Assembly (NCBI RefSeq): GCF_035083965.1 | Contig: NC_089727.1 | Coordinates: 16,196,769-16,260,768 of the forward strand | Direction: 5' to 3' | DNA from: Branchiostoma lanceolatum | Lineage: Eukaryota; Chordata; Leptocardii; Amphioxiformes; Branchiostomatidae | Length of the DNA: 64,000 bases | Part shown: one piece after another, positions 1,482-46,318 of the stretch | Layout of the letters: the number at the start of each line of letters is the position of its first letter | Numbering within the stretch: the first letter of the stretch is position 1 | Program-made: the position numbers and the translations under genes | The notes under the pieces: model-generated | Database searches by the model: none | What the model was told of the DNA's origin: nothing | What the model saw: only the letters and a program-made list of their open reading frames with translations

Positions 1482-3827
1482 TCATAATTTCGTGTTAGGC
1501 ATCTCCCCAACAGTCTTCAGCGGCATCTCGGCAAACTCATTGGCGATGACGAGGTCTTTGGAACCGGCCAATTCGGGACTCTGCGGAAACATGTGAGAAC
1601 AGTAAGTGTGCATGTAATGCCATGGCCATCTACCTTTAGGGTGATAAAGTTTGATTTCTAACCAAATCTTCCTCATTCCCTTTGGCTGGGAACCCTTCGG
1701 TACGAACCTTATCATTGACGTTGGGTTCTCCCCTAGCCCAGGGTTGGATGTCAGTGCGCATGAACACCGCGGTGAAAATCCCTCCCACACCCTGGATAGC
1801 CGCTCCTATGTAGAAGATTGTGGACCAGGCGGCAGGGGTCGGCTGAAAGAGTCCATGGGTATTGTACATATTACTGACTCGGGAAGGTATCCCAAAAAAG
1901 TATGGAATTCATTGACTCACCAAAGCTAGGATAAAAACTATTGGTAAATGCGTAAGATATGTTGCTGTCATGTGTATGTGAAAGAAGAGTTTATGGCGAG
2001 TTATTAAAACATCGTTGTACTCACATAATTATCCGTGACAAGTCCGACCAACAGAGGAGCGAAGATGCCAGAAACGGTCCCTCCCGTGTTGGCCAGAGCG
2101 AAGGTCACACCGCTGAACCTGGGCGCGAATTCAACATGGACGGCGCGGAAACCTGCCACTGTCAGTCCGTTAAAACCCTGTGTGAGGCACAGCAGGGCCA
2201 CAGCGGTGAAAGGGTTACATCCGGTCAGGTTCGCCAGGATCACTCCGCAGATCACCATGCCGGAATACCCTGGGAGACATTAACAATAAAAAAACATTAG
2301 TCTATATCATACAGACCAGGCTTGCTCCTATGTCGTTTGAGCAGACTGCAGTTTTAGAAACTTGAGTTTGAGTTGCCATTAATCTTACCTGTGATGACGA
2401 ATCCCCTTCTTATCCACACCTTGGGGATTTTCCCGTCTTGAATCAAGCGGTCAGCTGCAGCACCTGACGCTAACGTGGAAATCATGGCAAGGGCGAACGG
2501 AAGAGCAGACAACAAGCCGTTGTAGACAATAGAAAAGAGGTGTTATGCCTTATGGCTTTAGTAAAATTATGAGAGCTAGACTAAACCATGTTAGTCCAAA
2601 CATGGCGAGCCAGGTGGCCTTCATGTCGGTGGTCCAAAGGTTGAAATAATAGCACAATGAAGTCACGTGAAACCTCAGTCGGTGACTGGTACTAACAGTT
2701 AAATCTCTGATTTGTCATTTTTCACAACAACATTGCTGCCAGGCTCGCGCACTTTCTTGCGCTGATCGATCTGAGACTGTGAATGTAAAGGTAAGCCTGT
2801 CAACGATATGATCCCGTGTTTGCCTCCACTTGTTTTAGACATGCTGACCTGATTTTACTTATTATTAAAGTTGCTGTGAGTTTTCTGAACGTATTGTGAT
2901 CTTGAAATGCATGTATTTGGCAGAGTTTACCCTGGGAGACATTAACAATAAAAAAAACATTAGTCTACATCACACAGACCAGGTTTGCTCCTATGTCGTC
3001 TTAGCAGACTGCAGTTTTCGAAACTTGAGTTTGAGTTGCCATTAATCTTTATCTTAGTGTCATAAGAGACTTGGAGGAACTGGGCTTCACTTGGGAAGGA
3101 GTGAGAAGGCAGGCACTGGACAGAAGTGCGTGGAAAGCAGTGGTGGCCCGCATCGTCGACAGATGAAAGCGGCGACGATGATGATGATGATTAATCTTAC
3201 CTGTGATTACGAATCCCCTTCTTATCCACACCTTGGGGATTTTCTCGCCTTGAATCAAGCGGTCAGCTGCTACACCTGACGCTAACGTGGAGACCATGGC
3301 AAGAACGAACGGAAGAGCCGACAGCAAGCCGTTCTAGACAATAGAAAAGAGGTGTTACGGGCCTAGTAAAATTATGAGAGCTAAACTAAACCGGCCATAC
3401 CAATTCTTCAACAGAAAGCAAACCACTCTACATACTATAAGTGTACAAATAGGCTTTAATGGTACGCGTTAGGTAAGAATACAGGATGTTCTGTATCGTC
3501 ACTGCCCTGACGTTGACTTTTGTCATATTCCGTGGATAGACCCATTAGTTAGGCAGGAAGGTCTTTGGGTGAATTTTTTTCCACAACCAAACGTCTCACT
3601 CTGCTGTCTTCATCAGATTATCTCTACTACGTCCTGTGTAAAGCAAGGTGTCTTCTCTTGTCATATTCTTTGCAAAGAAATGACATGTAACGTAGGGATC
3701 CCTTGGAAATCAGTTACTTGTTAACTGAAGGGACTACCCTAAAGATTAATGAATAAATGAATAAATAGATAAATAAATGAATAAATAGATAGATGGATGG
3801 ATAGATAGATAGATAGATAGATGGATG

Positions 3828-3908
<81 letters not shown>

Positions 3909-6900
3909 ATAAATAAACGGATGTTCTTCAGTGCGATACGAGAACATTTGTCTGGTATTTGTCGTATCGACTGAGCAGCTTTTTTCCAAAGGGTGTCATT
4001 TTGGAACCCATATCCTCGCGTACAACGTCTAATTTCTGTACCACAAACTAGCACAGCAAAGGACAATAACATATAAGTATATGTAATGGGGAACATAAAA
4101 ACACACCGTTTGGATGTTGAATCCCAACACATTCTGCATGTAGTTCGGCAGTTGGGTAGTCAGAAAGAAGACTCCCCAATTCGAACTGAACTGTCCAATG
4201 ATGAGTGCCCAAACAGCAGGCGATAGGAGTATTTTCAGCCAAGGAACCGTTGGTTTCTGTATATATAATTTTGTGACCATTAGTTTCTTATTTATCATAT
4301 ATCATGATATGTCATCGGCTCAAATCTGCATACGGTATGTATTGTGTAGTAAATGCCGAGTACTTCCACCAGATAATTTCATACCAATAAAAAGGCATGC
4401 GTAACACGTAATTACACAGACTGCATGTAAAAGATATCTTTTTATAAACTTTTGAAATAGATTCATACCTGTCGACCCCTTATCCCGATACCCTCTTCGA
4501 TATACTTCTGTTCTTCCTCCAGGATCCGTGGATGTTTCGCAGGAGAGTCGTAAGCCAGGAGGAGCCATGTCACGAGCCAGGCTGCTACGAAAGCTCCTAT
4601 GAACAAAATGCCGTCGAAATTAACTAAAACATTTTTAACGACTGAGATATGTTGGTTAGCTTAACGGTTGCAATTCCCCAAGAAAACCTATACTGGGCTT
4701 AAATCTTACACACCTTTATCCGAAACAAAAGTCTGTCCACCAATGTAAAAGTTAGTCTGTATGATATTCTCCACCAAAGAAATCAACAACTACAGCAAAG
4801 GAAGAACCTGCAAGTGTAAGGGGCCCAACGATTTGGTGATGGTACCTGAAAGCTACTCACATACACAGAATCATAAAGAATTTCTTATGACTTCGTATTT
4901 GTGAAAACACATTCAACCTCATCGACGGAGGTGATTACGTTTTTTTACACTTGTTCTTACCAGGAATATAGAAGATGTACTCCCAGCCCAACTCAGCAGC
5001 CAGGAAGGACGCCAGTGGGTAGTTGATGATGTTACCAAGGGGTAACCCTACATTGACGTGACGATTGAAACAAATTGAACACATTGATAGAAAAGCTAGC
5101 CCAAAGATTTAACCAAATCGTGCATATTCATTCTTCTTCTTCTTCTTTATTCCTCCCATAGGAGAGCATGGCACATTTAAAATACAACAGTATTGATACA
5201 TATTTAGAAGACCAAAACATATTTACAAATCTCACGGTACATGCCCTCCGTCACATCTATATGTCTAAGCCTGTGGCACTCGTTGTTCTACTGTAGTGTT
5301 CGATTTCACTTAAGTCTCTACTCCCCTCCATGGGAATAATTTTTCGACGGCTTATAACTATAAGTTGTCATCACAAATAATTACATGGTCGATAGTGTAG
5401 TCCAATTGAGGAATAAAAGATACAAGTAAGTTATTACCCATGTAGCAAATTGCAAGCAGTCTTGTCCTTTCGGTAGGAGGAGCCCATCGGCCCCAGATTC
5501 CGTACAGGGAGGGGAACAGAACTCCCTGGAGTAAAAGGGTGCTGAGTTAGGGTAAGTAACGTCTGTGTTAACAAAACACATGCTCAAGACGATGAAAGGT
5601 CTTCTTGCACACTATACACCAATAACATAAATTTTGATATTTTTTTCATGAAATCGCCCGTACACCCAAATTTGGTTAAAACACTTTTTTTTAGTGTTGA
5701 TTCAGCACATACAATATAGCTGGCTTATCGTGAGCTAGCCACCGAGTCTGCATCTTGCTCTCATTAAAAACATTTTTCTTGCCTACTGGTTAGTCTGAAA
5801 TAAGGATGGGGCCAAAATGTACATGTGTATACTTACAGACACCAATCCCATGCTGAACCTGACAGCGAAGATCGCCCAAGGACTCGTCCGTGCGGCCACG
5901 GGGCAAAGAACGTTCAGGACCGCTCCTAACAACATGCTCGTCCCGTACACAATCCTACCGCCAAGCCTCTGCTCCAACATGCCACCTACCACCTAGTCGA
6001 AGAGAAATACTTTCCAAACAAAGTGGCAAAAGAATCAACCATTGTTAAGCCACGCTTGTATGGAATACACAATGTATATCCCCAAAAAATACTTCCTGAG
6101 AAAAATAGTTATCGGTCCCCATATCTCACCTGCGTAAAGATATAGCCGTAAAAGTTGGCACCAAGGATGACTCCCTTTAGGCTCTCGCTCCAGTCCAGTT
6201 CCCCTTGATCATTCTGCATATGCAAGAGCATAGATCATCACAATGTGACAACTAGTGTTCCCCCAACACATACAATCAAATGTATAATGTGATGATCTAT
6301 CAGTGCATGCTCAGTAGACATCTTACTACCCACTTATAGACAGGATGTCTCTGGGCCTATGTTCATGATTGTCTTACAAAAGATTCTCTGAATCCTTAAG
6401 TATAACGGTATAGTCTCTCTGTGTTGAAGACTATGCTGTGTTGTTCAAAACTAAGTAGATTGTACACATAGAATATGCCCCCACCTGTGAGGACGTATTT
6501 CCTCGCCCACTGCTCGGACAGAGCTGGTAGGAGTCAGTTTGATTGGCAGGTGTCACTCTTGATGAACTGTTCACCATGACAACAACAGCTAAAGCGAATC
6601 CTCCCCTTGATATGGTCAATGAGATGTGGCCAACGAAAAACAAGGCGGCTAAGATGTACCGAGCCGGGATTTTGTCGGCCAACTGCAGACCGAATAGTAA
6701 AAAGTAAGTAGAATCATTCAATCATGTGAGAGGAAAATTGTCAATCATTGGACGGGGATGAATCCATTCTAGCACTGTTGTAGTTGTTCACATACTTCAT
6801 TTAGTAAGTACGTATGCTCAACGCCAATAAACTTTTAGTGTGTGATCAGGTACATGTCGTACCATTATAATACACCTTAAGTTATTTTAGATTAATTTGG

Positions 6901-7390
6901 TCTACAAAGCAACATAGACCTGCATACTCTGACACAAAACTGCAAACTACATGTGTGATTCTATACAAACTGATGTGAGTAGGTCCTGGGTCCTGGATGG
7001 AGGTACATTTTTTCTTTGAAAAAGACTTATCTTAAATGAATGATACTATTTATTTCTCAGGTGTCTAATGTATCAGTAGAATGGTACACACATGTATGCA
7101 ACTCTCAGGGCAACAAATGGGAGGGTTCATAATGGACTCAATCCAGCTGAGATGTGAAGAACAGATATTTCATACAAATTACGCTGTTCACCAATCGTAG
7201 CGTAGCATGGTAACATGATGAACTGACACACACAAAAAAGTTATCAGAGTCTAAATTAGGCACACATAAAAAAAACAAAGTGCGTTCTACATACCAGACA
7301 ACAGCTTCCTTTCTCAGAGTGCTGGTCTGAACTTGTCTCAGCTTTGCCAACAGCATCCGCTGCCGCCATGTCCTTGCCTGTAGCATCCAT
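1482..7390 (-). CDS. SLC17 sialin-like transporter, copy A
   Basis: This is a complete minus-strand gene, 12 coding exons, 532 aa. Exons (plus coordinates, in gene order): 7295-7390, 6485-6682, 6130-6213, 5837-5992, 5438-5525, 4961-5047, 4469-4596, 4107-4256, 3201-3333, 2025-2269, 1708-1842, 1482-1580. All have GT-AG borders; junction phases are 0,0,0,0,1,1,0,0,1,0,0. The protein follows sialin: TM1 with R58, a luminal loop with N-glycosylation sequons (NSS, NQT, NTS), the FYGYI segment of TM2, the W-A-P-P segment after TM4, and the D-V/I-Q-P-W end after TM12. Family members move organic anions or phosphate across lysosomal, vesicular or plasma membranes; the substrate here cannot be inferred. 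TM4 has R171 but M174 and S178 where sialin has E171 and E175. The start at 7390 is the first ATG after the leader splice. A second exon 9 at 2389-2521 has no AG acceptor and is excluded. The leader exon lies 2 kb upstream beyond the LTR element. Confidence 0.88.
2389..2521 (-). pseudogene. Duplicate exon 9 of copy A with dead acceptor
   Basis: The 133-nt frame is intact and encodes the same TM8 segment as exon 9 at 3201-3333, with a good GT donor. The acceptor reads 'tctac' immediately before 'aacggc' where every working copy has 'ag', so AG has become AC. The central fragment at 9694-9826 shares this AC. Because 133 is not a multiple of three, including both exons would break the frame. I infer the upstream exon (3201-3333) is used. 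Confidence 0.8.
2600..2930 (+). promoter_or_regulatory. Ectopic copy of promoter and leader exon inside intron 9 of copy A
   Basis: In plus orientation, opposite to the host gene, this block repeats the upstream region of copy B (11220-11550): the 'ggtggtccaaaggttg' box at about 2630, the leader-exon end 'gtgaatgtaaag' with donor 'gtaagc' near 2790, and the exon 1 acceptor 'tttggcag' near 2922. It breaks off a few bases before the ATG and joins intron 9 sequence at about 2930. The reverse complement of 9418-9690 carries the same promoter-to-exon-9 junction. Confidence 0.7.
3050..3189 (+). mobile_element. 140-bp LINE 3' end with 9-bp target duplication
   Basis: The plus strand encodes the last 30 or so residues of a LINE ORF2-type protein (R-D-L-E-E-L-G-F-T-W-E-G-V, ending A-R-I-V-D-R-stop), followed by a GATGAT tail. 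It is flanked by attaatctt at 3041-3049 and 3190-3198. It sits just inside intron 9 of copy A, a few bases after the donor of exon 3201-3333, which remains intact. Copy B lacks it. Confidence 0.8.
3752..3917. repeat. GATA/ATAG microsatellite in intron 8 of copy A
   Basis: About 165 bp of near-perfect tandem tetranucleotide (GATA, with GATG and AATA variants at the 5' end). It accounts for open frames rich in I-Y-L-S on the minus strand, which are not genes. Copy B has no comparable tract in its intron 8. Confidence 0.95.
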
Positions 7391-7531
7391 TTTCAAAAAC
7401 TCTGCCAAATACATGCATTTCAAGATCACAATACGTTCAGAAAACTCACAGCAACTTTAATAATAAGTAAAATCAGGTCAGCATGTCTAAAACAAGTGGA
7501 GGCAAACACGGGATCATATCGTTGACAGGCT

Positions 7532-9693: not shown

Positions 9694-10404
9694 AACGGCT
9701 TATTGTCTGCTCTTCCGTTCGCCCTTGCCATGATTTCCACGTTAGCGTCAGGTGCTGCAGCTGACCGCTTGATTCAAGACGAGAAAATCCCCAAGGTGTG
9801 GATAAGAAGGGGATTCGTCATCACAGGTAAGATTAATGGCAACTCAAACTCAAGTTTCTAAAACTGCAGTCTGCTCAAACGACATAGGAGCAAGCCTGGT
9901 CTGTATGATATAGACTAATGTTTTTTTATTGTTAATGTCTCCCAGGGTATTCCGGCATGGCGATCTGCGGATTAGTCCCGGCGAACCTGACCGGATGTAA
10001 CCCTGTCGCCGCTGTGGCCCTGCTGTGCATCACACAGGGTTTTAACGGGATGACGGTTCTGCGCTGTGACCTAAGCATTGGTCAACACGGGAGGAACCGT
10101 CGCTGGCATCTTCGCTCCTCTGTTGGTCGGACTTGTCACGGATAACGATGTGAGTACAACGATGTTTTATACATTTACCAATCGATTTTATCCTAGCTTT
10201 GGTGAATTAACGTTGCATAACACTATTGGCATTCCTACCTAGGTTTATGAATATGAACTGATGAACAATACATGTGGACTCTTTCAGCCGACAATTACTT
10301 CCTGGTCCTCAATCTTCCACTTAGGAGCGGCTATCCAGGGTGTGGGAGGGACTTTCACCGCGGTGTTCATGCGCACTGACGTCCAGCCCTGGGCTCGGGG
10401 ATAG
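9694..10404 (+). pseudogene. SLC17 fragment, exons 9 to 11
   Basis: Exon 9 lies at 9694-9826 with AC instead of AG before it. Exon 10 lies at about 9946-10149, with its middle (the [10 protein letters not shown] segment) replaced by unrelated bases, so it is out of frame. Exon 11 lies at 10288-10404 and runs into a stop (TAG at 10402) where working copies continue to a splice donor. No exons 1-8 or 12 accompany it. It lies head-to-head with the leader of copy A and is closest to the 3' part of copy A. Confidence 0.88.
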
Positions 10405-11415: not shown

Positions 11416-11559
11416 GTAAGCCTGTCAACGATATGATCCCGTGTTTGCTTCCACCTGTTGTAGACATGCTGGTCTGATTTTACTTATTATTAAAGTTGCT
11501 GTGAGTTTTCTGAACGTATTTGATCTTGAGATGTCATGTATTTGGCAGAGCGTTGGAAA

Positions 11560-14500
11560 ATGGATGCTACAGGCAAGGACATGGCAGCAGCAGATGCTGA
11601 TGGCAAAGTTGAGACAAGTTCAGACCAGCACTCTGAGAAAAGAAGCTGTTGTCTGGTATGTTGAACACACTAGTTTTTATGCGTGCCTAAAATAGACTCT
11701 GATAGCTTTATGTGTGTGTCAGTTCACCATGTAACTATGCTTCGAGACGATTGCTGAACAGCGTAATTTGTATGAAATATCTGTTTCTTTCACATCTCAG
11801 CTGGATTGAGTCCATTATGAACCCTCCCGTTTGTTACTCTGCGAGTTGCATACATGTGTGTACCATTCTACTGATACATTAGACATCTGAGAAATGAATA
11901 GTATCATTCCTTTAAGAAGTCTTTTTCAAAGAAAAAATGTACCTCCATCCAGGACCCAGGACCTACTCACATCAGTTTGTATAGAATCACACATGTAGTT
12001 TGCAGCTTTGTGTTAGAGTATGCAGGTCTATGTTGCGTTGTAGACCAAATAAATCTAAAATAAGTTAAGGTGCATCATAATGGCACGACATGTACCTGAT
12101 CACACACTAAAAGTTTATTGGCGTTGACCATACGTACTTACTAAATAAAGTATGTGAACAACTACAACAGTGCTAGAATGGATTCATCCCCGTCCAATGA
12201 TTGACCATTTTCCTCTCACATGATTGAATGATTCTACTTACTTTTTACTATTCGGTCTGCAGTTGGCCGACAAAATCCCGGCTCGATACGTCTTAGCCGC
12301 CTTGTTTTTCGTTGGCCACGTCTCAATGATCATATCCAGGGGAGGATTCGCTTTAGCCGTTGTTGTCATGGTGAACAGTTCATCAAGAGTGACACCTGCC
12401 AATCAAACTGACACCTACCAGCTCTGTCCGAGCAGTGGGCGAGGAAATACGTCCTCACAGGTGGGGACATATTCTATGTGTACAATCTACTCAGTATGAG
12501 TTTTGCACAACAACATATTCTTTATGTCAATAGTCAATTTAGCACAGAGGGACTATACCGTTATACTTAAGGATTCAGAGAAGCTTTTGTAAGGCAATCA
12601 TGAACATAGGCCAAGAGACATCCTGTTTATAAGTGGGTAGTAGGATGTCTACTGAGCATGGACTGATAGATCATCTCATGATACATTTGATTGTATGTGT
12701 TAGGGGAACACTAGTTGTCACATTCTGATGATCTATGCTCTTGCATATGCAGAATGATCAAGGGGAACTGGACTGGAGCGAGAGCGTAAAGGGAGTCGTC
12801 CTTGGTGCCTACTTTTACGGCTACATCTTTACACAGGTGAGAAATGGGGACCGATAACTACTTTTCTCAGGAAGTATTTTTGGGGACATTCATTGTGTAT
12901 TCCATCCAAGCGTGGCTTAAACATGGTTGATTCTTTTGTCACTTGGTTTGGAAAGTATTTCTGGTCTCTCCGACTAGGTGGTAGGTGGCATGTTGGAGCA
13001 GAGGCTTGGCGGTAGGATTGTGTACGGGACGAGCATGTTGTTAGGAGCGGTCCTGAACGTTCTTTGCCCCGTAGCCGCACGGACGAGTCCTTGGGCGATC
13101 TTCGCTGTCAGGTTCAGCATAGGACTTGTGTCGGTAAGTAATACACATGCACATCCTGATTCTTTCCTTATTTCAGACTAACAATTTAATCTAATAGGCA
13201 AGAAAATGTTTCAAAGGGGAGAAAGATGCAGACTTGGTGGCTAGCTCACGATAAGCCAGCTATATTGTATATGCTGAATCAACAGTAAAAGTGGTTTAAC
13301 CAAATTTGAGTGAACAGGCGATTTCATGAAAAAAGATTGTGACATTTTTTTATTCACATTGATCTTATTGGTGGATAGTGTGCAAGAAGACCTTTCATCG
13401 TTGTGAGCACCCGTTTTGTTAACACAGACGTTACATACCATAACCCCTTTTCCTCCAGGGAGTTCTTTTCCCCTCCCTGTACGGAATCTGGGGCCGATGG
13501 GCTCCTCCTACCGAAAGGACAAGACTGCTTGCAATTTGCTACATGGGTAATAACTTACTTGTATCTTTTATTCCTCAATTGGACTACACTATCGAATTCA
13601 TGAATGGTAAAGGTGCTGGGGCTGGCCTGGATAGTATTTAGATAAAAAAAGCACATTAGCTTGCTTTTCGCGATATATGAATGAATGAATGAATATTTAT
13701 GATTTGTTTAAATCTTTGGGCTAGTTTCTTTATTAAGGCCACAGTAAGTAAATTTTATGAATGGCATCCTCCGCAGACTCCAAAATTAATGAGATAAGGC
13801 GAAAAAAAACAAGGCGGGCCCAAAAAAAAACAAGATTCCTATATTTTCAAATTTTGAGATCACAAATCTGTTAAACAAGAATTAAGGCGACGAAATATGA
13901 TGTCATGACCAACAAGTATTTTATTCCTGTATTCTACCAATGAGGTTTCATATATAATATAAAACCTCCTTGATTCAACAGTAAACATGTCCATGTAGAT
14001 GTGTTTACATCTCAATAGACTAACTACAACAAATGCAGAAAAGAGCTTGTTGTACCATCATCTGAAGCAACTACACTGGGTATTGATATGCAATGAAACA
14101 CCTTGTGTATACAGCTCAATTAACTAGACCCCCACATTATCTATATAATGTCCTTGCTAGAACAAATGCAGAAAACAGCTTGTTATCATACCATCATGGG
14201 CAGGAACTGCACTGGGTATTCATTTGCAATGAAACACCTTAGACTGTCAACGTTTACGACATATTTGCCAATTTTTGGCATGTTGACCACCGTCGGAGGG
14301 CAATGAAATTTCTTGTTCTTTATTTCGAAATCAGGCGAAAATTAATGAGCGCGCTGATGTCATCCATAAAAATTACTTGCTGTGACCTAATGTGGTATTT
14401 TTTTCAATCGCCACGTCAATGTAGGGTTACCCCTTGGAAGTATCATCAACTACCCGCTGGCGTCTTTCCTAGCTGCTGAGTTGGGCTGGGAGTACATCTT

Positions 14501-17122
14501 CTATATTCCTGGTAAGAACAAGTGTGAAAAATGTAATCACCTCCGTCGATAAGGTTGAATGTGTTTTCACAAATATGAAGTCATAAGATATTCTTAATGA
14601 TTCTGTGTATGTGAGTAGCTTTTAGGTACCACCACCAAATCGTTGGGCCCCTTGTACTGGTAGGTTCTTCCTTTGCTGTAGTTGTTTGAATCTTTGGTGT
14701 AAACATCATACAGACTAACTTTTATATTGGTGGACAGACTTTTGTTTCGGATGAAGGTGTGTAAAATTTTAGCCCAGTATCGTTTTTTTTTGGAATTGCA
14801 GCTGTTTAATAGCTAATCAAAATATCTCAGTCGTTAAAAATGTTTCAGATAATTTCTACGGCTTTTTGTTCATAGGAGCTACACAAGTAGCCTGGCTCTT
14901 GGCATGGCTCCTCCTGGCTTACGACTCTCCTGAAAAACACCCACGGATCCTGAAGGAAGAACAGAAGTACATAGAAGAGGGTATCGGGATAAGGGGTCGA
15001 CAGGTATGAATCTATTTCAAACGTTTATAAAAAGATATCTTTAACATGCAGTCTGTGTAATTACGTGTTACGCATACCTTTTTATTGGTATGAAATTATC
15101 TGATGGAAGTACTCGGCATTTACTACACAATACATACCGTATACAGATTTGAGCATGACATATCATGATATATGATAAATAAGAAACTAATAGTCACAAA
15201 ATTATGTCTAACAGAAACCAACGGTTCCTTGGCTGAAAATACTCGCATCGCCTGCAGTTTGGGCACTCATCATTGGACAGTTCAGTTCGAATTGGGGAGT
15301 CTTCTTTCTGACTACCCAACTGCCGAACTACATGCAGAATGTGTTGGGATTCAACATCCAAACGGTGTGTTTTTATGTTCCCCATGTCGTGTACTTATAT
15401 GTTATTGCCCTTTGCTGTGTTAGTTTGTGGGGCACAAACTAGACGTTGTACGTAAGGATATGGGTTCCTCAAGGATTCCCCTTTGGACCAAAGCAGCTCA
15501 GTCGATAGACAAATACCAGACAATTGTTCCCGTATCGTTCCGCCCGTTTGGTCAATCGTTTGCAAAGAATATGACAAGAGAAGACACCTTGCCACACGCA
15601 GGACGTAGTAGAGATAATCTGATGAAGACAGCAGAGTGGCTGCGGAGTTGGCAGGTGTGAGACGTTTGGCTGTGAAGAAAACTTTATCCACGTAATATGA
15701 CAAAATTTGACGTCAGGGAAGCCTATTTCTACACTTATAGTATGTAGAGTGGTCTGCTTTCTGTTGAAGGATTGGCATGGTTTAGTCTAGCTCTCATAAT
15801 TTTACTAAAGCCATAAGGCTTAATACCTCCCTTCTATCCTCCAGAACGGCTTGCTGTCTGCTCTTCCGTTCGTCCTTGCCATGGTCTCCATGTTAGCGTC
15901 AGGTGCAGCAGCTGACCGCTTGATTCAAGGCGAGAAAATCCCCAAGGTGTGGATAAGAAGGGGATTCGTCATCACAGGTAAGATTAATGGCAACTCAAAC
16001 TCAAGTTTCTAAAACTGCAGTCTGCTAAGACGACATAGGAGCAAACCTGGTCTGTATGATATAGACTAATGTGTTTTTTTTTCATTGTTAATGTCTCCCA
16101 GGGTATTCCGGCATGGTGATCTGCGGAGTGATCCTGGCGAACCTTAGCGGATGTAACCCTTTCACCGCTGTGGCCCTCCTGTGCATCACACAGGGTTTTA
16201 ACGGACTGACAGTGGCAGGTTTCCGTGCCGTCCATGTTGAATTCGCGCCCAGGTTCAGCGGAGTGACCTTCGCTCTGGCCAACACGGGAGGAACCGTTTC
16301 TGGCATCTTTGCTCCCCTGTTGGTCGGACTTGTCACGGATAACTATGTGAGTACAATGACGTTTTGATAACTCGCCATAAACTCTTCTCACACATATACA
16401 AAAGACTGGAACAGATCTTACACATTCACCAATTGTTTTTATCCTAGCTTTGGTGAGTCAATGAGTTCCACAATTTTATTAGGATACCTACGTCAGTCAA
16501 TAATATGAACTGATGAACAATACCCGTGTGGACTGTTTCAGCCGACAACTGCTGCCTGGTCCACAATCTTCTACATAGGAGCGGCTATCCAGGGTGTGGG
16601 AGGGATTTTCACCGCGGTGTTCATGCGCACTGACGTCCAGCCCTGGGCTCAGGGAGAGCCCAACGTCAATGATAAGGTTCGTACCGAAGGATTCTCAGCC
16701 AGGGAGTGAGGGAGATTTGGATAGAAATCAAACTTTATCATCCTTAAGTTAGGTGGCATTACGTCCAATACTGTAAATGCAGAAATGCTCGCGGTGGTTT
16801 TATGTTTGCGGTTTTCGCGGTGAACTTTCAGCGTGGACTTAAAACTAGCGCGAAACTTTTTGCCCACCTATGACTGTAGCGCTACTATTGTTTCAAACGC
16901 GAACTTAAAACCATTGCGAACACTCCATTTTTTCCGTACAGCGAAATAAAACCACGCGACCTTAAATGCATTTACAGTAACGCCTGGATACCGCAGACTA
17001 ACTGTTCTCACTTGTTCCAGCAGAGTCCCGAACTGGCCGGCTCGAAGGACCTCGTCATCGCCAACGAACATGCGGAGATGCCGATGAAGGCTGTGGGGGA
17101 GATGCCTAACACGAAATTATGA
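11560..17122 (+). CDS. SLC17 sialin-like transporter, copy B
   Basis: Complete 12-exon gene, 532 aa, the plus-strand mirror of copy A. Exons: 11560-11655, 12263-12460, 12753-12836, 12978-13133, 13459-13546, 14425-14511, 14876-15003, 15215-15364, 15845-15977, 16102-16346, 16542-16676, 17024-17122. All frames are open and all borders GT-AG. Features match copy A: TM1 arginine, three sequons in the first luminal loop, W-A-P-P after TM4, R kept but both TM4 glutamates of sialin absent, C-terminal T-K-L. Exon 7 has E-K-H-P where the other copies have A-K-H-P. The last acceptor is a CAGCAG tandem, so exon 12 may start at 17021 or 17024, adding or omitting one glutamine. It has a single intact exon 9, which makes it the cleanest representative of the A/B pair. 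Vesicular or lysosomal anion transport is inferred from the family only. Confidence 0.9.
13640..14390 (+). repeat. Intron 5 insertion in copy B with direct repeats
   Basis: Intron 5 is 878 bp here but 390 bp in copy A. The extra sequence holds two imperfect direct repeats, about 14027-14108 and 14160-14240, both containing 'aacaaatgcagaaaa-agcttgtt' and 'gcaatgaaacacctt'. One frame (M-Q-K-R-A) faintly recalls LINE reverse-transcriptase C-terminal segments. An A-rich block lies at 13800-13840. Assignment is uncertain. Confidence 0.45.
16769..16980. mobile_element. Mariner-type MITE in intron 11 of copy B
   Basis: The element begins CTGTAAATGCA and ends TGCATTTACAG, flanked by TA on both sides. 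Its interior is largely self-complementary (aaaccac / gtggttt blocks). Copies A and C read through this site without it. The same family is at 53547-53758. Confidence 0.85.
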
Positions 17123-18225: not shown

Positions 18226-18227
18226 TT

Positions 18228-18876: not shown

Positions 18877-20634
18877 GTAAGTCTCTCAACAATAGTACAG
18901 GCGATATGTTCGAACCCCTCGTTTGCTTCCATTTTATTTTCGATACACTGCCCTGAGAGTACTTTTGTCACTGTGATACTTTTCTGATCACACTGTGATA
19001 CCGTGTATTAAGCAGAACTTTGAAAAAAATGGATGCGACAGGCAAGGAGATGACGTCATCATATGTTGGTGGCAAAACTGAGACAAAGTCTGACCGGGAC
19101 TCTGAGAAAGGAAGCTGTTGTCTGGTAGGTAGAACATGCTAGTTCTTACGTTTACTTCCAGGTAGAACTTTTTAAGAGAAAAAAAGGCACCTCTACCCAT
19201 GACCTATTCAAATCTGTTTGCATAAAGAACCACATGTTTTATAACACTGAAAACTCATTTATGTGTACATGGAGTCTGCAGTTTTGTGTCTTTATCTTTA
19301 TGTCACTTTATGGACACAAGCTATCTAAAATGATATGAAAGATGCATTCAGTCTGTATGTTACGCCGAAAGGCGGTTGTATCAGCTAGATAGATATAGAT
19401 ACAAAAACTATCTGGTACGACTTGAAGGTGCCATTAAAGTAAAACTTTTATTGTTGTCTAAAAATTTCATTCGCGTTGACCATCGCCGTCCAGTAACGGT
19501 CTATTTATTTGTTTTTCTTGGTGTGTGCTCAAGTTTATTCCCGTTAGCTTGGACCTTTTCGATTTCTTGTCACTGTACGTTTTTGTATATGTTGGCGCTG
19601 CAGTTGGCCGACAAAATCCCGGCTCGGTACGTCTTGGCAGTCCTGTTTTTCTTTGGCCACGTCTCAATAATGACAACCAGGGGAGGGTTCTCTGTAGCCA
19701 TTGTTGTCATGGTGAACAGTTCAACAAGAGCGACACCTGCCAATCAAAGTGACACCTACCAGCTCTGCCCCAGCACTGGGTCTGGAAATACATCCGTACA
19801 GGTAGGAAAACATTCAGGTTATCATTCCATGGGTAAAATCACACATACACGCACTCTTCAAGTCACAGAATTACAATATCATACTTTAGGACATCCCGTT
19901 TATCAACGGGAAGTGGGAATATTTCATAAACATGCCATGTGCTGCGCCATGCAATCAACTAACATATTTCGACAATATGTGTTAATAAGGGGAACACCAC
20001 TTGCCATATCATAATGATTTCTACTGTTGTACGCACAGAACGATCAAGGGGAACTGGACTGGAGCGAGAGCCTGAAGGGAGTTCTACTTGGTGCCTACTT
20101 TTACGGCTACATCATCACGCAGGTGAGCGACTGAGACTAATAACATCATTTTCCAGCTAATATTTTTTTGAGGGGGGGGGGGATATATCTCGTGTATATC
20201 ATACCATACCAGGCCGGCTACACAACATAATTGATTTTTCTGGCGCTGGGTTTACAAAGTATTTCTTTAACATCTCTCCGAGTAGGTGGTTGTGTATGAT
20301 CTTATTTTTTGCGTGTGTCAAACTCACAGACTTAGTCACAGTACATTTGTTTTGCCCACACAGGTAGTAGGTGGCGTATTGGAGCAAAAGTTTGGCGGCA
20401 AGGTCGTGTACGGGACGGCCATGTTGGTCGCAACGGTTCTGAACGCTCTTAGTCCCGTGGCCTCACGGTCGAGTCCTTGGGCGATGTTTGCCGTCAGATT
20501 CAGCATCGGACTTGTGTCGGTAAGTTATATATCGCGACCCTTTCCAGACAGACGATTTGCAAGCTTTGGGAAAAAATGTATATTTGAAGATTAAATCGTA
20601 GATTGTCATTCATTTATTTATTTATTGGTTCGGC

Positions 20635-20790
20635 ATGTAGATACCAGGGTTACCCAACTAGACTAAGGGCGAACCCATGTGCGGCCGAATGTAGATTTTT
20701 GGACCATCGCACTCCGGGGCATGCCCCTACTCTTTTTCGAAAGGTGTGGTGGGTTATTCTAAGTGCGCGGGGTGTGTCTCTTGTATCTAG
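20635..20790 (-). mobile_element. SINE 3' part, reverse orientation
   Basis: The 'ggaccatcgcac' to 'gcatgcccctactctttttcgaaaggtg' stretch is the complement of the 3' part of the SINE at 38935-39270. It lies in intron 4 of copy C. Confidence 0.65.
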
Positions 20791-34455: not shown

Positions 34456-37400
34456 ATGGATATGAAGTCATCGAACGTTGGTGATAAAAATGAGACAAAA
34501 CCAGGCGAGCACTTCAAAAAGGGAAGCTGCTGTCCGGTATGTAGGGCATTTTGTTAGCTGTATCTGATAAACATTCCTTGCTGACCTTTGTATCATTGAT
34601 GGACATATTGTCTTAAGTATGGTGTTACGAAATTACAAAGACTCTAGTACAATACTGTACTTTTAGAAATACACTCCAAACAATGCCATAGGATGTAGTT
34701 GATGCCCTGATTTCATAAATCTGAATGCAGAAATTCGTATTTTTCCTGATCAAATTCGAGCACTTTTTGCGTCGATTTCAGCTGGCCGACAGAGTCCCGG
34801 CTCGGTATCTTCTGTCGGGCCTGTTTTTCTTTGGCATCGCTTCGTTAGTCCCAATCAGAAACGGATTCAGCGTCGCCATCGTTGTCATGGTGAACAGTTC
34901 ATCGTCTGCTACATCTGTCAATCAAAGTACCCCCTACCAATTCTGTCCGAGCAGCGGTTCAGGTAATACTTCCACACAGGTAAGAAAGTTATCCTTATTC
35001 ATATCTGTAATTAGTACAGCACGTCCATTTTCTCGTGATCATATTCTTCAAGATAGAGAACTGTGATATCATATCAAGACGTTGGAACAAAAATCAAATA
35101 AACACTGATTAGGTCACCAAGATACAAAGTATGGAAGAGGCCATGCTGATGATAGACATATTGGGGTCAATGATCTCTTTCACTGTACCGTTATGTATAA
35201 CATGCATGAAATAGTTGCTCCATGTTTAAATCACGTTGCTCTATGTTCACAGATCGAGGAAGGAGAACTGGAGTGGAGTAAGAGTCTGAGGGGAACTCTA
35301 CTGGGGGCGTACTACTATGGATACATCATTACCCAGGTGAGCGGTTTAGACAAATACCTTTATATCATAGTATAAATGTAGAGATAATGTAGAGAGGTTT
35401 TTGTGGGCATTGTATGTAGACCAAAATCATAGATTATGATATGAATTCATCCTCGTCGCTAACCTCTTACTCATTCGATGTACAATTTGTAATTGTGCTT
35501 CTTATATGGCTTGGTCGAGCATCAATCTTGAAAGATGGGGCTTCATCACCTACGTAGCCCATCTTTGTCGTGATGTATTTCTTATCCTTTGCGTCTGCCA
35601 AACTCAGTACATTTTGCTTACACAGGTCGTAGGTGGTGTGTTGGAGCAGAAGTTGGGCGGCAAAGTGGTGTACGGGACGGGCATGTTGGCGATTGCCGTC
35701 CTGGACGCGCTTGGCCCCGTTGCTTCCAGGGCGAGCCCTTGGGCGATGTTTGCTGTCAGATTCAGCATGGGCCTGGTGTCAGTAAGTCATCTTTATACAT
35801 AGCTTGGATTTCTACATAGAAATGATAGTCTGATGGTGACTTTACGAAGACCTTCGATCATGAGCAATATATATCCCCTTTCAAACCCTCACTGTAGTGA
35901 TAACTTTGAATTGATAACCCTACCCTCCAGGGAGTTCTGTTCCCCACTATGATCGGAGTCTGGGGCCGATGGGCTCCTCCCACTGAAAGGACGAGACTTC
36001 TGGCAATTTCCTACATAGGTAACAGCATATCTTGATTACCCGTTATTCCAGTTTTGGAGTCACCCTTCCTTCTGCCCACAGAAAGTAGAGAAGGTACATT
36101 TAGTTTTCTTTGAGCCTTTAGTCGTAAATTCTACTGCGTAGAATCTAGATTGGTTGAAATCAGTATTTTAGATTCTTAGTTTTCATATGAACATCGTCTT
36201 TTTCTTGACATCGATGTAGGGTTGCCCGTTGGTAACATCATCAACTACCCGCTGGCGTCCTTTCTGGCTGCTGAGTTGGGCTGGGAGACTATCTTCTACA
36301 TTCCTGGTGAGCAAATTTAAGAATAAGAATTCTGCATGCCAATCCTTAAAAGCCATATCGCTGTATGTAGCGGGTATATCTTTGTTTATAGTTTATCAGA
36401 TCAGACACCATTAAGCCCATTACATCAAATCCAGTACAACGCCGAAACTTGTCATTTCTTCAACGGGATGATAGAATAACTACCGTTTCTTCATCAACTT
36501 ACGATAGGAGCTTCCGTAGCAGCCTGGCTTTTGGTTTGGCTCCTCCTGGCTTACGACTCTCCTGCGAAACATCCACGGATCCTGGAGGAAGAACAGAAGT
36601 ACATCGAGGACAGTATCGGTGTTAAAGTGCAACAGGTAGCAAGCAAAGATGTGATTTGTTATTTCAAAAGCAGGACATTTCATAAGCTGTGTTTAAGTTG
36701 ATACATAACTGCTCACTTACATATCCTATAGTGAGATAACAAAATACCCTTCATTCTCTCTTACAGAAACAAAGGGTTCCTTGGCTGAAAGTGTTTTCGT
36801 CTCTTCCGGCCTGGGCTCTCATCGTTGGACAATTCAACTCCAATTGGGCCAAGTACTTTTTGCTTACCCAACTGCCGAACTACATGAAGAATGTGCTGGG
36901 GTTCGACATCAAAACGGTATGCTACATTACATGATGTGTCATACTAGTAACTCTTTCGTTGCCAGTTGTTGTTGTGTCATGTTGCCTAGTGGACCGTCTT
37001 CGTTTGAATGATTTGGACCAAAGCTGCCTCGATTGATACGACAATGTACAGATCTTTTCGCATTGTCTTGTAGAGTGCTAAATTGATACCCCAGTTGTAA
37101 ACCACATCGAGTGGTTCTGCAAGAGATCAAATCTGATCAAAGAAGGGGGGGGGGGTCATTTCTGTAGTCTTGCCTGTGATTCAAATAAACACACTTACAC
37201 CTCCATTGTGTCCTCTAGAACGGCTTGCTGTCTGCTCTTCCGTACGTCCTTGAGATGATCTCCATGTTGACGTCAAGCATTGCAGCTGACCGCTTGATTG
37301 CAAGAGGGAAAATCCCCAAGGTGTGGATACGAAGGGGGTTCGCCATTACAGGTGATCGTTATAGTTCTCTTACCAACCTTACTTTACACCTTCGATCCTC

Positions 37401-38385
37401 CCACAAGAGTCATCAAAATTGCTGTTAAGCAACATGATTATGTTCATTTTATTGTTGATGGTTCTCAACGCAGGATTTTCCGGCATGGTGATCTGCGGAG
37501 TGATCCTGGCGAACCTGAGCGGATGTAATCCTGTCGCCGCTGTTGCCTTGCTGTGTCTCTTACAGACCTTTAACGCCCTGACAACAGCAGGCATGCGTGC
37601 TGTCCATGTTGAATTCGCGCCCAGGTTCAGCGGAGTGACCTACGCGTTGGCCAACACGGCAGGAACTCTTCCCGGCATCTTCGCTCCTCTGTTGGTCGGA
37701 TTCATAACAGAGAATGATGTGAGTTAACAGCACAATACAGCATAGCACAACACAATACAGCACAGCACAGCTCAAAGAAGCACAACGCAAAACAACCTGA
37801 CAACACAACACAACACAACACAACACAACACAGCACAGCACAGTACAACGCATTACAACACAACACAACACAGTACAGCACAGTACAACGCATTACAACA
37901 CAACACAACACAGCACAGCACAGCACAGTACAACGCATTACAACACAACACAGCACAACGCAGCACAACGCAGCACAACACAACACAGCACAGCACAGCA
38001 CAACACAACACAACACAACAAAATGCAACACATCATATCGCATTGTATGATTGATGCCCTGTTTTACAATAACTTTTACTTCAACTTCTACGCATCTTTC
38101 GTCTTTCTTTGATGAGCCATTGTTCCGTAATGGTACCTACATGATCTTGAGTTAATAATGTGAAATATTATCGATGTGTCATTTCAGCCAACCCTTGGTG
38201 CCTGGATGAAGATCTTCTACATAGGAGCGGCTATCCAGGGTGTGGGAGGGATCTTCACCGTGGTGTTCATGCGCACTGACGTCCAGCCTTGGGCTCGGGG
38301 TGATGAAGAACGGGACCTCGTCATCGCCAATGAACATGCCGAGATGCCGATGAAGTTTGTTGAGATGCCTAGCACGAAATTATGA
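34456..38385 (+). CDS. SLC17 sialin-like transporter, copy E
   Basis: Complete gene, 515 aa, with only 11 coding exons: 34456-34536, 34782-34979, 35253-35336, 35626-35781, 35931-36018, 36220-36306, 36508-36635, 36767-36916, 37219-37351, 37474-37718, 38188-38385. The last exon equals exons 11 and 12 joined in frame through a R-G-D-E-E-R-D segment; intron 11 and about eight neighbouring codons are gone. The N-terminus is short because the ATG used by D and F is changed and translation would begin at 34456. TM4 keeps the arginine, lacks both sialin glutamates, and the sialin histidine position is isoleucine (T-M-I-G-V-W). The C-terminal T-K-L is retained. Transport role is inferred from family only. 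Confidence 0.9.
37726..38030. repeat. CAACA/CAGCA minisatellite in intron 10 of copy E
   Basis: About 300 bp of pentamer units (acaac, acagc) with higher-order repeats containing 'gtacaacgcatta'. Cys-rich minus-strand frames over it are repeat translations, not genes. Confidence 0.92.
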
Positions 38386-39345: not shown

Positions 39346-39384
39346 TCAAGAACCAAACAAATACAATCCTACATGTATATACTC

Positions 39385-40464: not shown

Positions 40465-43400
40465 ATGGGTACGGAAGGCAAGGATATGACGTCCTCTAAC
40501 GTTGATGAGACCAAACCGGACCAGGACTCCAAAAAAGGAAGCTGTTGTTTGGTATGTAGAACTTTTATTTTGGGTGTGCCTGCCAAACACAGACTTTTTG
40601 TACTATACAACGTATTGTCTTCAGTATTTTGGTGCGAAATTACAATGTCTTCAGTGCAATATTTGTAAAAATGCACCCAAATGATCCTATAAAATGTAGT
40701 TGATGCCCTGATTTCATAACTCTGAATACAGAAATTCGTCTTTTTCCTGATCATATTCGACCAACTTTTCCTTCAATTACAGCTGGCCGACAAAGCTCCC
40801 GCTCGATATATTCTGTCGGGCTTGTTCTTCTTGGGCATAATTTCGTTAGTCCCAACAAGAAACGGATTCAGCGTCGCCATCGTTGTCATGGTGAACAGTT
40901 CATCGTCTGCTACATCTGTCAATCAAAGTGACCCCTACCAATTCTGTCCGAGCAGCAGTTCAGGTAATACTTCCACACAGGTAAGAAAGTTATCCTTATT
41001 CATAACTCCGGGAAGGAGGGTGACCTCCTGAATAAGTATTATGAATAGAGTTGCGCACATTTTCTCAGCTACAAATCACTATCTCATTGCTGTATTGGTA
41101 TGTAACTTGGCATATCGTCTGCTAGGTTTCCCGAGATGATGCACGTTTGTCTTTTTTTTACCACCGTAACGGCTTTAATTTATCGTTGATAAGATATTTT
41201 AAAAGCAGACCATTAATTCGTAACGTTTTGTGGATATGCGCTGGGAGTATGTATTCGTATAGCACATTCATTTTCTTCTGATAATATTATTAGTATGTCT
41301 CTCATCTGGACACTTCCCCCAACAATGGTGTGAAAGCCACATCGTCTCTCTACATAAAATTCATGTATGTCAAAAGCGGTGGAAGACGAAATACAGTTGA
41401 TCTCAAACTGCCCCTTCAATGATCAGGAAAGAAAAGAGCTTTTTAAAGAAATCACCAAAACTTACCACAATTTCCAAACGTTTGCTGACGAAAAGAAAAC
41501 TAGAACCCTGTTAACCTCTCAAAACCCACTCATTACAAAAAAGTGTGACACTTCGTCTTCCACTGCTTCCAAAAAACAGGTCAAACCCCAAAAGCGTAGA
41601 TTGTATTCCGTAGTAGTTTTTAGAATAGTCATGTCTGTCCTGTGCTATTAGGTCACACAAAAAAAGGAAGTGTCGAGGGGGCTATGCTTGACAGACATGA
41701 TATGGATGGGTGATCTCTTTCACTATATTATTAGGTATGAACTGGTTGCCATGTTGTCGTGTTGTTATGTGATTACAGAGCGTGGAAGGAGAACTGGAAT
41801 GGAGTGAGAGTCTGAGGGGAACTCTACTGGGGGCGTACTATTATGGCTACATCATCACTCAGGTGAGCGGTTTAGACAGATACTTTAGTCTGTATTACAT
41901 TGTATAAGATTATGTATGGGGAAACGTCAAGAAGCAATTTTGTGCACTGTATCTAGAAAAACGGTTGGTTATATGCCGCCCTCTTCCTCATGCTTTAACT
42001 GAAATTATTTCTATCTTGAAAGACGGAGCTTCATCAGTGAGATAGCCTACAGCCCACCTGTACTTGTGTATTTCATATCCTTTGCGTCTGCCAAATCACA
42101 GTACATCTGTTTTGCCCACACAGGTCGTAGGTGGTGTGTTGGAGCAGAAGTTGGGCGGCAAAGTGGTGTACGGGACGGGCATGTTGGCGATAGCCGTCCT
42201 GGACGCCCTTGGTCCCGTCGCCTCCAGGGCGAGCCCTTGGGCGATGTTTGCTGTCAGATTCATCATGGGCCTGGTATCTGTAAGTTGTAATTTTACAAAC
42301 GTTATATAAACAATACAGAAAGAGCCGCTAGGGGGCCAAAACCTATACCACTTACTCTCTGTCCAAAGAGCTATCTACCACTCAAAAATCAGGACCATAG
42401 CATGTCCAGAACACGAGATATCAAAACAGGAAGTTCCGCTGCAGTACTATAACAAGCCGCTAGGGGACCCAAAATCTAATCATTTCAATTTCTCATCAAG
42501 ACCTACCCACCTACCAAATATCAAGACAAGCCATCCAAGCCTTCTTGAGTTATGCTGCTCTTTACACGCAGACGCTACCCTCTGCATAACCTTCTCGGCG
42601 AAGGTAATTATAGTTTAGTTGTGATTTGAGGAAGAAGTCCTATCCTGAGCACTTGTCTCCATTATATCGATACCTACAATGAAGTTATTGATGTATCTAT
42701 CCTGCAGGGAGTTCTGTTCCCCACCATGTACGGAGTATGGGGCCGATGGGCTCCTCCTACTGAACGATCAAAACTTCTGGCAATTTCCTACACGGGTAAG
42801 TACATCTTTATTTACTAAATTACCCTTTATCCCATTTCACAGTCATCCTTCCTTCTATCTCCAGAAATAGAATGGTATATTAGTTTGCTTTTAGTCTTTA
42901 GTCATAGATTCTACTGCATAGCCCTAAGGATCTAGGTTTGCTGAAATGGTCTTTTAGGTCTGAGTCTGCATCTTAACCAGATTTTTCACACCACTATAGG
43001 ATTACCCCTTGGTAGCATCATCAACTACCCACTGGCGTCCTTCCTGGCTGCTGAGTTGGGCTGGGAGTACATCTTCTATATTCCTGGTAAACAAACTTGA
43101 AATGTCATCTTCATCCTGAAGCCAATCCGTAGAGTCGTGTGTCGATTGAATAAATGATCCTAGTGTGGAGATTTTGACTTCCTTTGTGTAGAGAAAAGTT
43201 TTGTGATACATGAGTAATGGTGCATCTTAAACCCTTAGGTGTCCAATGGGACGCTCAACACTGTAGCGAAACGTAATCGTCTACACTGATCGTTTGGGTT
43301 TCTATAAATAATGACTAATGGATACTAGTGGTTCGTTCTGGTTCTTTTCCGTAAGCCTTTAAAACCAGCACTACCGAGAGAACTGTAATCCAATTTCTTT

Positions 43401-46318
43401 CTACATAATCATGAAAATACGACATAATAGATTGAATGCTCACTGATTTATTCATTAACTTTCGATAGGAGGTTTTGTAGCAGTCTGGCTTTTGGTTTGG
43501 CTCCTCCTGGCTTACGACTCTCCTGCGAAACATCCACGGATCCTGGAGGAAGAACAGATGTACATCGAAGATACCATCGGTGTCAAAGTGCAACAGGTAG
43601 CAAGCAAAGATGCGATCCGTTACTTCAAAAGCTGCATGGATACGTTATATCATGTGTTTTCTGACAGATATTTTGATTGATATTACATGGTTTTGAGCTT
43701 CAAACGTTTCTTATGAATAGACCCTTCCTTGTCTCTGACAGAAACCAAGAGTTCCTTGGCTGAAGGTGTTCACGTCACTTCCGGCCTGGGCTCTCATCAT
43801 TGGACAACTCTCTTCAAATTGGGGCAACTACTTTTTGCTTACCCAACTGCCGAACTACATGAAGAATGTACTGAGGTTCGACATCAGAACGGTATGCTGC
43901 GATGTTTCAGTTGTTGCCAGTTGTTTTGTTGCCAGTTGTTTTGTGGGATGATGTCCGGTGGACCGTTTTCAATGTGTAGAAATCGATGTTCCACAAGGAT
44001 CCCCCTTTCGACCAACTCTACCTCGCTGTATTATATATACAGTAAATATTGTACAAATCTGTTTGCACCATCTTACAATTCTCAATTTATGATTTGATCA
44101 AAAATAACCTCACGAACTCTTATGGCAATAAGCGGCATGGCATAGTGTATTTCTTACAATCTTACTAGACGCATACAAAATTATAACACCGCCTCCCTAT
44201 TCTCCAGAACGGCTTGCTGTCTGCTCTTCCGTTCGTCTGTGCCATGTTCTCTATGTTGGCATCAAGCGCTGCAGCTGACCGCTTGATTCAAGACGGGAAA
44301 ATCCCCAAGGTGTGGATAAGAAGGGGATTCGTTATAACAGGTAAGATTTGGGGTAGCTCAAGATCAAGTTTCTAAAACCGCAGCCTATCTATACGACATA
44401 TCAGCACACCAGGCCTGTATGATGTGGACTAATGTACTCTTATTATCTCCATGAAAAAATGGAGATATTGTTTTTGACGTGTTTGTGTGTGTGTGTGTGT
44501 GTCTGTGTTTCTGGACTATTGTAGTCAGCATAACTCAAGAACCTCTTGATGGATTACGATGATATTTGGTATGTGGGCGGGTGTTGTGAAGCCGGAATTC
44601 AAGGTTGATTTTGGGCCCCCTGGTATGTGACCTTGGTACTGCAGCAGAACTTCCGTTTTCGTATCTTTTGACCTGGACGTGCTGTGGTCTTGATTTTTGG
44701 GTGGCAGGTAGCTTGTGATGTAATAAAAAAGTGGCGTAGGTTTGGGCCCCCTAGCAGCTTGTTGTTGATGGTTCTTTTTCTACACAGGATTTTCCGGCAT
44801 GGTGGCCTGCGGATTGGTCCTGGCGAACCTGAGCGGATGTAACCCTGTCGCCGCTGTTGCCCTCCTGTGCCTCATCCAGGCATTCAACTCCCTGACGACG
44901 GCAGGCATGCGAGCTGTTCATGTTGAATTCGCGCCCAGGTTCGCCGGAGTGACCTTCGCACTGGCCAACACGGCGGGAACTCTTTCCGGCATCTTCGCTC
45001 CTCTCTTGGTCGGATTCATAACAGAGAATGATGTGAGTACACAACATAACAAAACACAAAATAGTACCGTTGAACTAGCCTGGTATTCAAACCTATTATA
45101 GGTGTCTAGACTCTTCGTCCTCTTAGGCTTATAGCTATTATAGGTTTGGATTCCAGGCTGCCTTTGAACATGACTAAGCACAAAACAAGACAATGCAACA
45201 CGACACTAGGCGACACGATACACTTTGCACGGAGGTAATGTTTGAATAGTCCGTTTGTGTACGGGGTATATGGAATGAAATATCCTGAATTGTTTCTTTG
45301 ATGGGCCATTGTTGCACCTGCGTTTTCTTGACATATTTGATGGGCCATTGTTGACACCTGCATTTTCTTAACATATTCGTGCACCCTTCCAGCCAACCCT
45401 TGGTGCCTGGTCTAAAATCTTCTACATAGGAGCGGCTATCCAGGGTGTGGGAGGGATTTTCACCGTGGTGTTCATGCGCACTGACGTCCAGCCCTGGGCT
45501 CGGGCAGAGGGCGACGGAGAACTCAACATTGGGGATAAGGTTTGTGATGAATTATAAGCGAGGTCAAGTACAGTAGAATGAAACTATAGTTCTGACAAAA
45601 TTTACCATCCCTCGTGTGATAACAGGTTCTATACACATGTACATATACATGTGGATGATGTGTTTTCATCATTAACATTCATTACAATTTTTTATGAACT
45701 TATGACGTCAAGCTATGGGAGTGAGTGATAACGTTAAGTCAGGAAAAAGTCAATATAAACAGGGAGATCAGCATTTGACAGCAAAACAAAGCAGATAATA
45801 TATATTCGATATTCATTATAGGGGTCTAGAGGTTCATAGTGTATCATACCTATAGATAATGATAACTTTATTGCACAACAATTGTACAAGGTACAAAGTA
45901 TGGCATTCACTGGTACATAGATAACACTCTATTAGGCTAACCAATCTATCTAATACAATATGGTGAAGTAGTCTATCTTATACAATATGATGAAATAGTC
46001 TATCTTATACAATATGGTGTAGTAGTATGGGATGACAATGGGATTTTACAAACATTGGAGGAGTTTCTTACGTCTAGGCATTCTTTGATATATTTCCCAA
46101 TGTATACCATACATGGGTTGTCACATGTCATTATGTACTTGAATTTGCTGTTCAAGTCCATTGAGATAAATGATATAAGTCCTATGGATACTATAACTGT
46201 ATGTTGTCACATGTTTCCACAGGGGACAGTACTGACTGGTTCCAAAGACCTCATCATCGCCAATGAACACGCCGAGATGCCCACACAGAATATCGAGATG
46301 TTCATAACGAAGTTATAG
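40465..46318 (+). CDS. SLC17 sialin-like transporter, copy F
   Basis: Complete 12-exon gene, 532 aa. Exons: 40465-40551, 40783-40980, 41779-41862, 42124-42279, 42708-42795, 43000-43086, 43469-43596, 43742-43891, 44208-44340, 44788-45032, 45393-45539, 46223-46318. All frames are open. TM4 reads R-F-I-M-G-L-V-S, so the conserved Ser after the Arg is Ile here, and both sialin glutamates are missing. Exon 5 ends S-Y-T-G rather than C-Y-I/M-G. Exon 3 starts S-V-E-G-E-L-E-W. The last exon begins G-T-V-L-T-G-S-K and ends I-T-K-L with TAG instead of TGA. Introns 2, 4, 9, 10 and 11 are expanded by repeats. A likely polyadenylation signal (aataaa) lies at about 46969. This is the last SLC17 copy before the OCA2 gene. 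Confidence 0.9.
40995..41165 (-). mobile_element. MITE end, related to the foldback element in OCA2
   Basis: 'ccgggaaggagg', 'gcattggtatgtaacttggcatatcg-tgc' and 'gatgatgcacg' match the complement of the 3' half of the element at 59310-59760. It lies in intron 2 of copy F. Confidence 0.65.
41340..41654 (+). mobile_element. LINE C-terminal remnant in intron 2 of copy F
   Basis: The open frame at 41367-41651 has a V-E-D-E segment followed by [12 protein letters not shown], resembling the conserved C-terminal region of LINE reverse-transcriptase proteins (E-D-E-x-H and CP motifs). No start context or splice sites suggest a host gene. Moderate confidence because only the tail is present. Confidence 0.55.
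42310..42610 (-). repeat. Interspersed repeat, member 3 (intron 4 of F)
   Basis: A diverged relative of 25850-26130 in the same orientation, with 'gcatgtccag', 'aggaagttccgctgcagtac' and 'cttcttgagttatgctgc'. Confidence 0.65.
44455..44760 (+). repeat. Interspersed repeat, member 2 (intron 9 of F)
   Basis: Reverse-orientation relative of 25850-26130, starting at an 'atctccat-atggagat' inverted motif followed by a GT run (about 44485-44505). Confidence 0.7.
45077..45161. repeat. Small hairpin in intron 10 of F
   Basis: Arms of about 25 bp (agcctggtattcaaaccta / taggtttggattccaggct) flank a 30-bp loop. Copies D and E lack it. Confidence 0.75.
45950..46025. repeat. Tandem repeat, about 29-bp unit, three copies
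   Basis: The unit 'ctatcttatacaatatg-tg-a-tagt' is repeated in intron 11 of F, next to a LINE-like 3' tail ('ataactttattgcacaac', about 45860). Confidence 0.8.

Follow-up and report, generated by a model that had tools for sequence, protein, structure and literature searches.

An array of amphioxus SLC17 transporter genes without the glutamates of transmembrane helix 4

A stretch of 64,000 nucleotides from Branchiostoma lanceolatum (the window: contig NC_089727.1 of assembly GCF_035083965.1, positions 16,196,769 to 16,260,768) carries a tandem array of six SLC17 transporter genes, five of them intact (A, B, D, E and F) and one broken (C), together with a three-exon relic. To model the genes, translated copy-versus-copy matches and splice sites were combined manually, and the resulting models were then recounted. 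The six genes have a common 12-exon plan, copy A being on the minus strand and the other five on the plus strand. Copy A (1482..7390; 12 exons, 532 amino acids, 11 of 11 introns GT-AG) is intact if positions 3333-3201 are taken as its exon 8, and copy B (11560..17122; 12 exons, 532 amino acids) is 94% identical to it in protein sequence. Copy C (19029..25107) is disrupted by a frameshift from five added bases at the start of exon 4, and TG stands in place of AG at the end of the intron before exon 9. Copies D (27994..32769; 12 exons, 524 amino acids), E (34456..38385; 11 exons, the final intron being missing, 515 amino acids) and F (40465..46318; 12 exons, 532 amino acids) complete the set. 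All five intact frames are open and all 54 of their introns run from GT to AG, a count that reflects models chosen with splice sites in mind. An earlier note on this DNA had described a six-member array with five intact members; the gene models bear this out, add the relic to it, and show that the limits it gave, 1482 and 46318, coincide exactly with the stop codons of A and F.

Residues are numbered here by human sialin positions, and the limits of the transmembrane helices (TM) used to place them are approximate. In all six copies, the end of exon 3 encodes R168-F-(S/I)-(M/I)171-G-L-V-S175 and is followed by a GTAAGT donor; exon 4 of A, B, D, E and F opens after CAG with G-V-L-F-P, the first residue being G176. 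The intron presumably lies at the same place in the human gene, between codons 175 and 176. For residue 171, the codon ATG is used by A, D, E and F, ATA by B and ATC by C; in C, Ile171 and Ser175 are still present despite the broken frame downstream. Ser175 is encoded, from A to F, by TCT, TCG, TCG, TCT, TCA and TCT, three synonymous forms, and the residue has thus survived silent changes. At 183, copies A, B, D and F have Tyr and copy E has Ile (copy C, its frame lost, is unscored), and Arg57 in TM1 and Arg168 in TM4 are encoded in all six genes. The earlier note had read the same residues at 57, 168, 171 and 175 in every copy, as the codons confirm, and its Tyr or Ile in place of H183 holds in the five scorable copies. 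As to whether a glutamate might instead sit elsewhere in TM4, the alignment of the five-protein profile with the sialin chain 8dwi_A runs through this helix without a gap (E 6.4e-103), and the residue pairing is therefore sound. An alternative exon 3 donor, a GT two codons earlier (GTGTCN) that would remove Val174 and Ser175, was ruled out, given the GTAAGT after Ser175 in six of six copies and the in-frame join to exon 4. Copy F illustrates the arrangement: its exon 3 (42124..42279, plus strand), which covers TM3 and the first half of TM4, has D150 at 42202, R168 at 42256, M171 at 42265 and S175 at 42277, directly before GTAAGT. We know of no precedent for a Met/Ser pair at 171/175, while the loss of the glutamates itself has precedents.

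The array belongs to the SLC17 family, as its domain, its nearest structures and its TM1 and TM4 arginines show. The MFS_1 domain (PF07690) is matched in all five proteins (best E 8.4e-56), and the nearest solved structures are chains of sialin, VGLUT2 and VGLUT3 (E 5.5e-103 to 4.2e-81), followed by DgoT (5.6e-22). The TM4 glutamate (sialin E175, DgoT E133) that is widespread in SLC17 is Ser in all six genes, but it is also absent from NPT1-4, and for that reason is not strictly defining for the family. Placement within the family is less sharp. The N-terminal dileucine is the lysosome signal of sialin, and the [DE]xxxL[LIVM] motif is missing from residues 1-45 of each intact protein; with E171 and E175 gone and only four residues kept in all five copies from a scored sialin pocket set of ten (Y54, R57, Y119, H298, Y301, N302, F305, Y306, S411 and N430), the array does not match the sialin subfamily. 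In a tree of nine sequences, with four references (sialin, NPT1, VNUT and VGLUT2, those of NPT1 and VNUT being provisional sequences on long branches), the array stays together on a long stem and NPT1 is joined to sialin (73%). Approximately unbiased (AU) tests leave all four placements inside the 95% set, with p values of 0.309 beside sialin, 0.192 beside NPT1, 0.409 beside VGLUT2 and 0.741 beside VNUT, where long branches meet and the sequence is one of the provisional ones. A search of bacterial, archaeal and viral collections, which says nothing on animals, returned 198 genome-contig and 78 viral-contig pattern matches, none of them a relative by tblastn.

Beyond TM4, the substrate pocket is changed at position 411 in TM10, where A, B, D, E and F encode Arg (CGC, CGT, CGT, CGT and CGA), as does C; the CGA codon of copy F lies at 44910, within exon 9 (44788..45032, plus strand; end of TM9, TM10 and TM11). 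Sialin has Ser here, VGLUT2 has Asn, and the provisional NPT1 and VNUT sequences have Phe and Ser respectively. S411 is described as one of the sialin substrate pocket residues (PMC13207226). Other charges vary among the copies. At position 150 in TM3, E and F have Asp, while A, B, C and D have Asn, as VGLUT2 does; T150 of sialin is described as interacting with E171 in simulations (PMC13207226). Lys305 in TM7 is paired with Glu338 in TM8 in D and E, while A, B and F have neither. His50 is found only in A and B, and His414 and Glu416 in TM10 are found in all five intact copies, the former common to sialin and VGLUT2 and the latter replaced by Asp in the four reference proteins. Position 61, Ser in sialin, is Ala in A and B, a substitution reported to keep human sialin lumen-open (PMC11116495). 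At the C terminus, all six genes end in T-K-L. Neither the S411R change nor this tail was mentioned in the earlier note.

Comparison with characterized members of the family shows a mosaic of likenesses. Sialin (SLC17A5) has a common fold with the array and is 34.1-36.9% identical to its copies over 452 columns. R57, R168, Y119, N302 and N430 occur in all five intact copies, whereas E171, E175, H183, Y54, H298, Y301, F305 and S411 are altered in all five, and Y306 is present in D, E and F only. Among the vesicular glutamate transporters (SLC17A6-A8), VGLUT2 is 34.0-35.1% identical to the five copies and, like them, has a neutral residue at 171, Gln187 being described at the position of sialin E171 (PMC11116495); unlike in them, the second glutamate is retained in VGLUT2, and the arginine of the C-domain lies in TM7 (Arg322), not TM10. 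NPT1-4 (SLC17A1-A4), like the array, are described as lacking the TM4 glutamate and as not needing low pH (PMC6532931). The provisional NPT1 sequence, 27.4-29.7% identical to the copies, differs from the array at 171/175 (Gln/Gln against Met(Ile)/Ser) and at 411 (Phe against Arg). The provisional VNUT (SLC17A9) sequence, less well validated than that of NPT1, is 25.6-27.1% identical; both glutamates are absent and Met stands at 171, as in the array, but it has Gln at 175 and Ser at 411. Where the earlier note had proposed a functionally distinct group, the absence of E171, E175 and H183 throughout the array stands, but such a loss is not unprecedented, in view of NPT1-4, VGLUT2 Gln187 and the provisional NPT1 and VNUT sequences. 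SLC17 proteins that are functionally set apart in this way are thus already known. The new element is instead the pocket arginine together with the copy-specific counter-charges.

An expansion of the SLC17A1-A5 clade in amphioxus has been published, comprising eight A-group and two B-group members plus a local group near the VGLUTs (Sreedharan 2010, PMC2824716), and the present array may be part of it. The passages of that account that deal with the expansion mention neither TM4 residues nor the pocket, and searches of one library of open-licence papers brought up no other account that was recognised as describing these residues, be it for amphioxus or for another invertebrate.

In sialin, R57-E175 and R168-E171 are described as salt bridges that are broken upon protonation, which frees the arginines (PMC13207226). 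It may well be, on about an even balance of the evidence, that the array encodes H+-uncoupled, potential-driven organic-anion transporters of the NPT/VNUT type. The replacement of E171 by Met or Ile and of E175 by Ser would remove the proton-coupling centre of TM4, while the anion-binding arginines R57 and R168 stay. Without a protonatable carboxylate at this site, these arginines should be available to substrate or chloride whatever the pH, and the cavity would become more basic through R411, which replaces the pocket serine. Organic anions would then most likely be moved by the membrane potential with no coupling to protons, the mode described for NPT1-4 and VNUT. VNUT is reported to be membrane-potential driven (PMC10149257), and urate transport by NPT1 is reported to be both chloride-dependent and potential-driven (PMC8317579). 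The gene structures, residues and tail are read directly from the DNA, and purifying selection on the intact copies is seen in their substitution rates; driving force, substrate class and cellular location are predictions. As to location, the plasma membrane is perhaps the site, where the T-K-L tail could bind a PDZ scaffold; the lack of an N-terminal [DE]xxxL[LIVM] motif also speaks for an NPT-like reading. The tail fits the class I PDZ ligand pattern and resembles the T-R-L end of the provisional NPT1 sequence. NPT1 is said to bind PDZK1 via its C terminus (PMC8317579). Of the functional consequences proposed in the earlier note, altered coupling is a reasonable expectation from these residues, while nothing seen here speaks for a channel mode.

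Several observations weigh against a potential-driven transporter of this type. The NPT-type model TIGR00894 gives copy A 352.5 bits, below its curated cut-off of 626.45 (best E among the five proteins 8.9e-108), while the provisional human NPT1 sequence scores 718.9 bits, above that cut-off. The T-K-L match is a short motif and could be due to chance, and D and E have matches to [DE]xxxL[LIVM] with an acidic start near the C terminus (DDQDLV and EERDLV). Asp150, beside the lost E171, may leave E and F with a titratable site, and an acid so near the lost site weakens the earlier interpretation. Finally, sialin with both glutamates replaced is reported to lose more than 60% of its transport in one assay and all of it in another (PMC11116495), and DgoT E133Q is reported to keep robust galactonate exchange while losing net flux (PMC10149257, PMC11649914). 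The impairment of these mutants implies that a clade without the acids should not work like sialin; at the same time, residual sialin activity and exchange by DgoT E133Q imply that losing the acids is not enough to turn a carrier into a potential-driven uniporter.

The DgoT result also bears on a different mode of transport, in which the empty carrier, lacking a TM4 carboxylate, cannot return and the proteins swap anions as obligate or preferential exchangers with little net flux. S175 is the position equivalent to DgoT E133, where the mutant exchanges galactonate without net transport. However, NPT1-4, missing the same glutamate, are described as net potential-driven transporters, so that the family tolerates its loss, and the array differs at many further pocket positions; exchange as the principal mode seems unlikely. 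Also unlikely is the idea that proton coupling or pH sensing persists through another residue. The candidates would be Asp150 (in E and F alone), His50 (in A and B alone) or His414/Glu416, which all five intact copies have. Position 150 adjoins the R168-E171 bridge in the sialin simulations (PMC13207226), and some pH sensitivity is reported to remain in DgoT after loss of the TM4 acid (PMC10149257). Yet A, B, C and D have Asn150 as in VGLUT2, His414 also occurs in sialin and VGLUT2, where the role of the glutamates has not been taken over, and an acid is present at 416, as Asp, in all four references.

It is also conceivable, but very improbable, that the array is decaying and that the residue changes are loss-of-function drift. 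One of the six genes is broken, a relic is present, and intron 8 of copy A is disordered, containing both a second copy of an exon and a decoy acceptor. Against this, dN/dS (the ratio of nonsynonymous to synonymous rates) lies between 0.241 and 0.306 in all ten pairs of intact copies (exons 1-9, 423 codons). The five intact copies are under purifying selection, and from these ratios they have been kept, on average, as working proteins. The five open frames, the uniformly GT-AG introns, and the conservation of Ser175 and Arg411 despite synonymous codon change argue in the same direction.

A further reading, to be held only tentatively and on balance improbable, would treat the array as a natural charge-swap series. 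The TM4 proton centre would be gone in every copy, R411 would be a third pocket arginine in all six genes and the functional counterpart of the VGLUT TM7 arginine, and the lost counter-charge would be supplied anew by D150 of TM3 in E and F and balanced locally in D and E by the TM7-TM8 pair K305/E338. If this were true, proton coupling and the choice between mono- and dianions would vary from copy to copy, and the array could be used to find out directly which carboxylates make the difference between an SLC17 proton symporter and an anion transporter driven by potential. For the mechanism by which SLC17 proteins change from proton-coupled to potential-driven transport, a question still under study, five adjacent apparently functional paralogues with no TM4 acids, a new pocket arginine and a varied position 150 provide a compact natural comparison.

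A and B (1104-7532 versus 11418-17527) are inverted copies, about 85-91% alike across exons, introns and flanks, and are the youngest pair in the array. Exon 5 of A (4961-5047) is 98% identical to that of F (43000-43086), while the other A/F exons compared are 69-87% identical, which suggests gene conversion across the array. A relic of exons 8, 9 and 10 lies between A and B (9694..10401, plus strand), with an internal loss and a broken frame in exon 9 and TAC as the exon 8 acceptor. A second copy of exon 8 is found inside intron 8 of copy A (2387..2521, minus strand), also with TAC instead of TAG, and for this reason is probably skipped in splicing. The lost acceptor that they share marks the relic and this extra exon as related pieces in inverted order. 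Between the two exon 8 copies of A (2387-3333, minus strand), there is a decoy acceptor for exon 9, and the sequence after it is unrelated. In copy E, exon 10 runs into the C-terminal exon without an intron (38188-38385, plus strand), where the other five genes have one.

Low-complexity tandem arrays occur in the introns of copy E (37727-38032; unit ACAAC/40 bases) and copy A (3761-3915; ATAG), and Rfam gave zero matches in the window at gathering score. Downstream of the array, exon-sized frames at 54300-60100 on the plus strand match Pfam CitMHS (PF03600), with E of 0.00055 or less for all five peptides tried and four of the five above the cut-off. They probably belong to an OCA2/P-protein-like gene.

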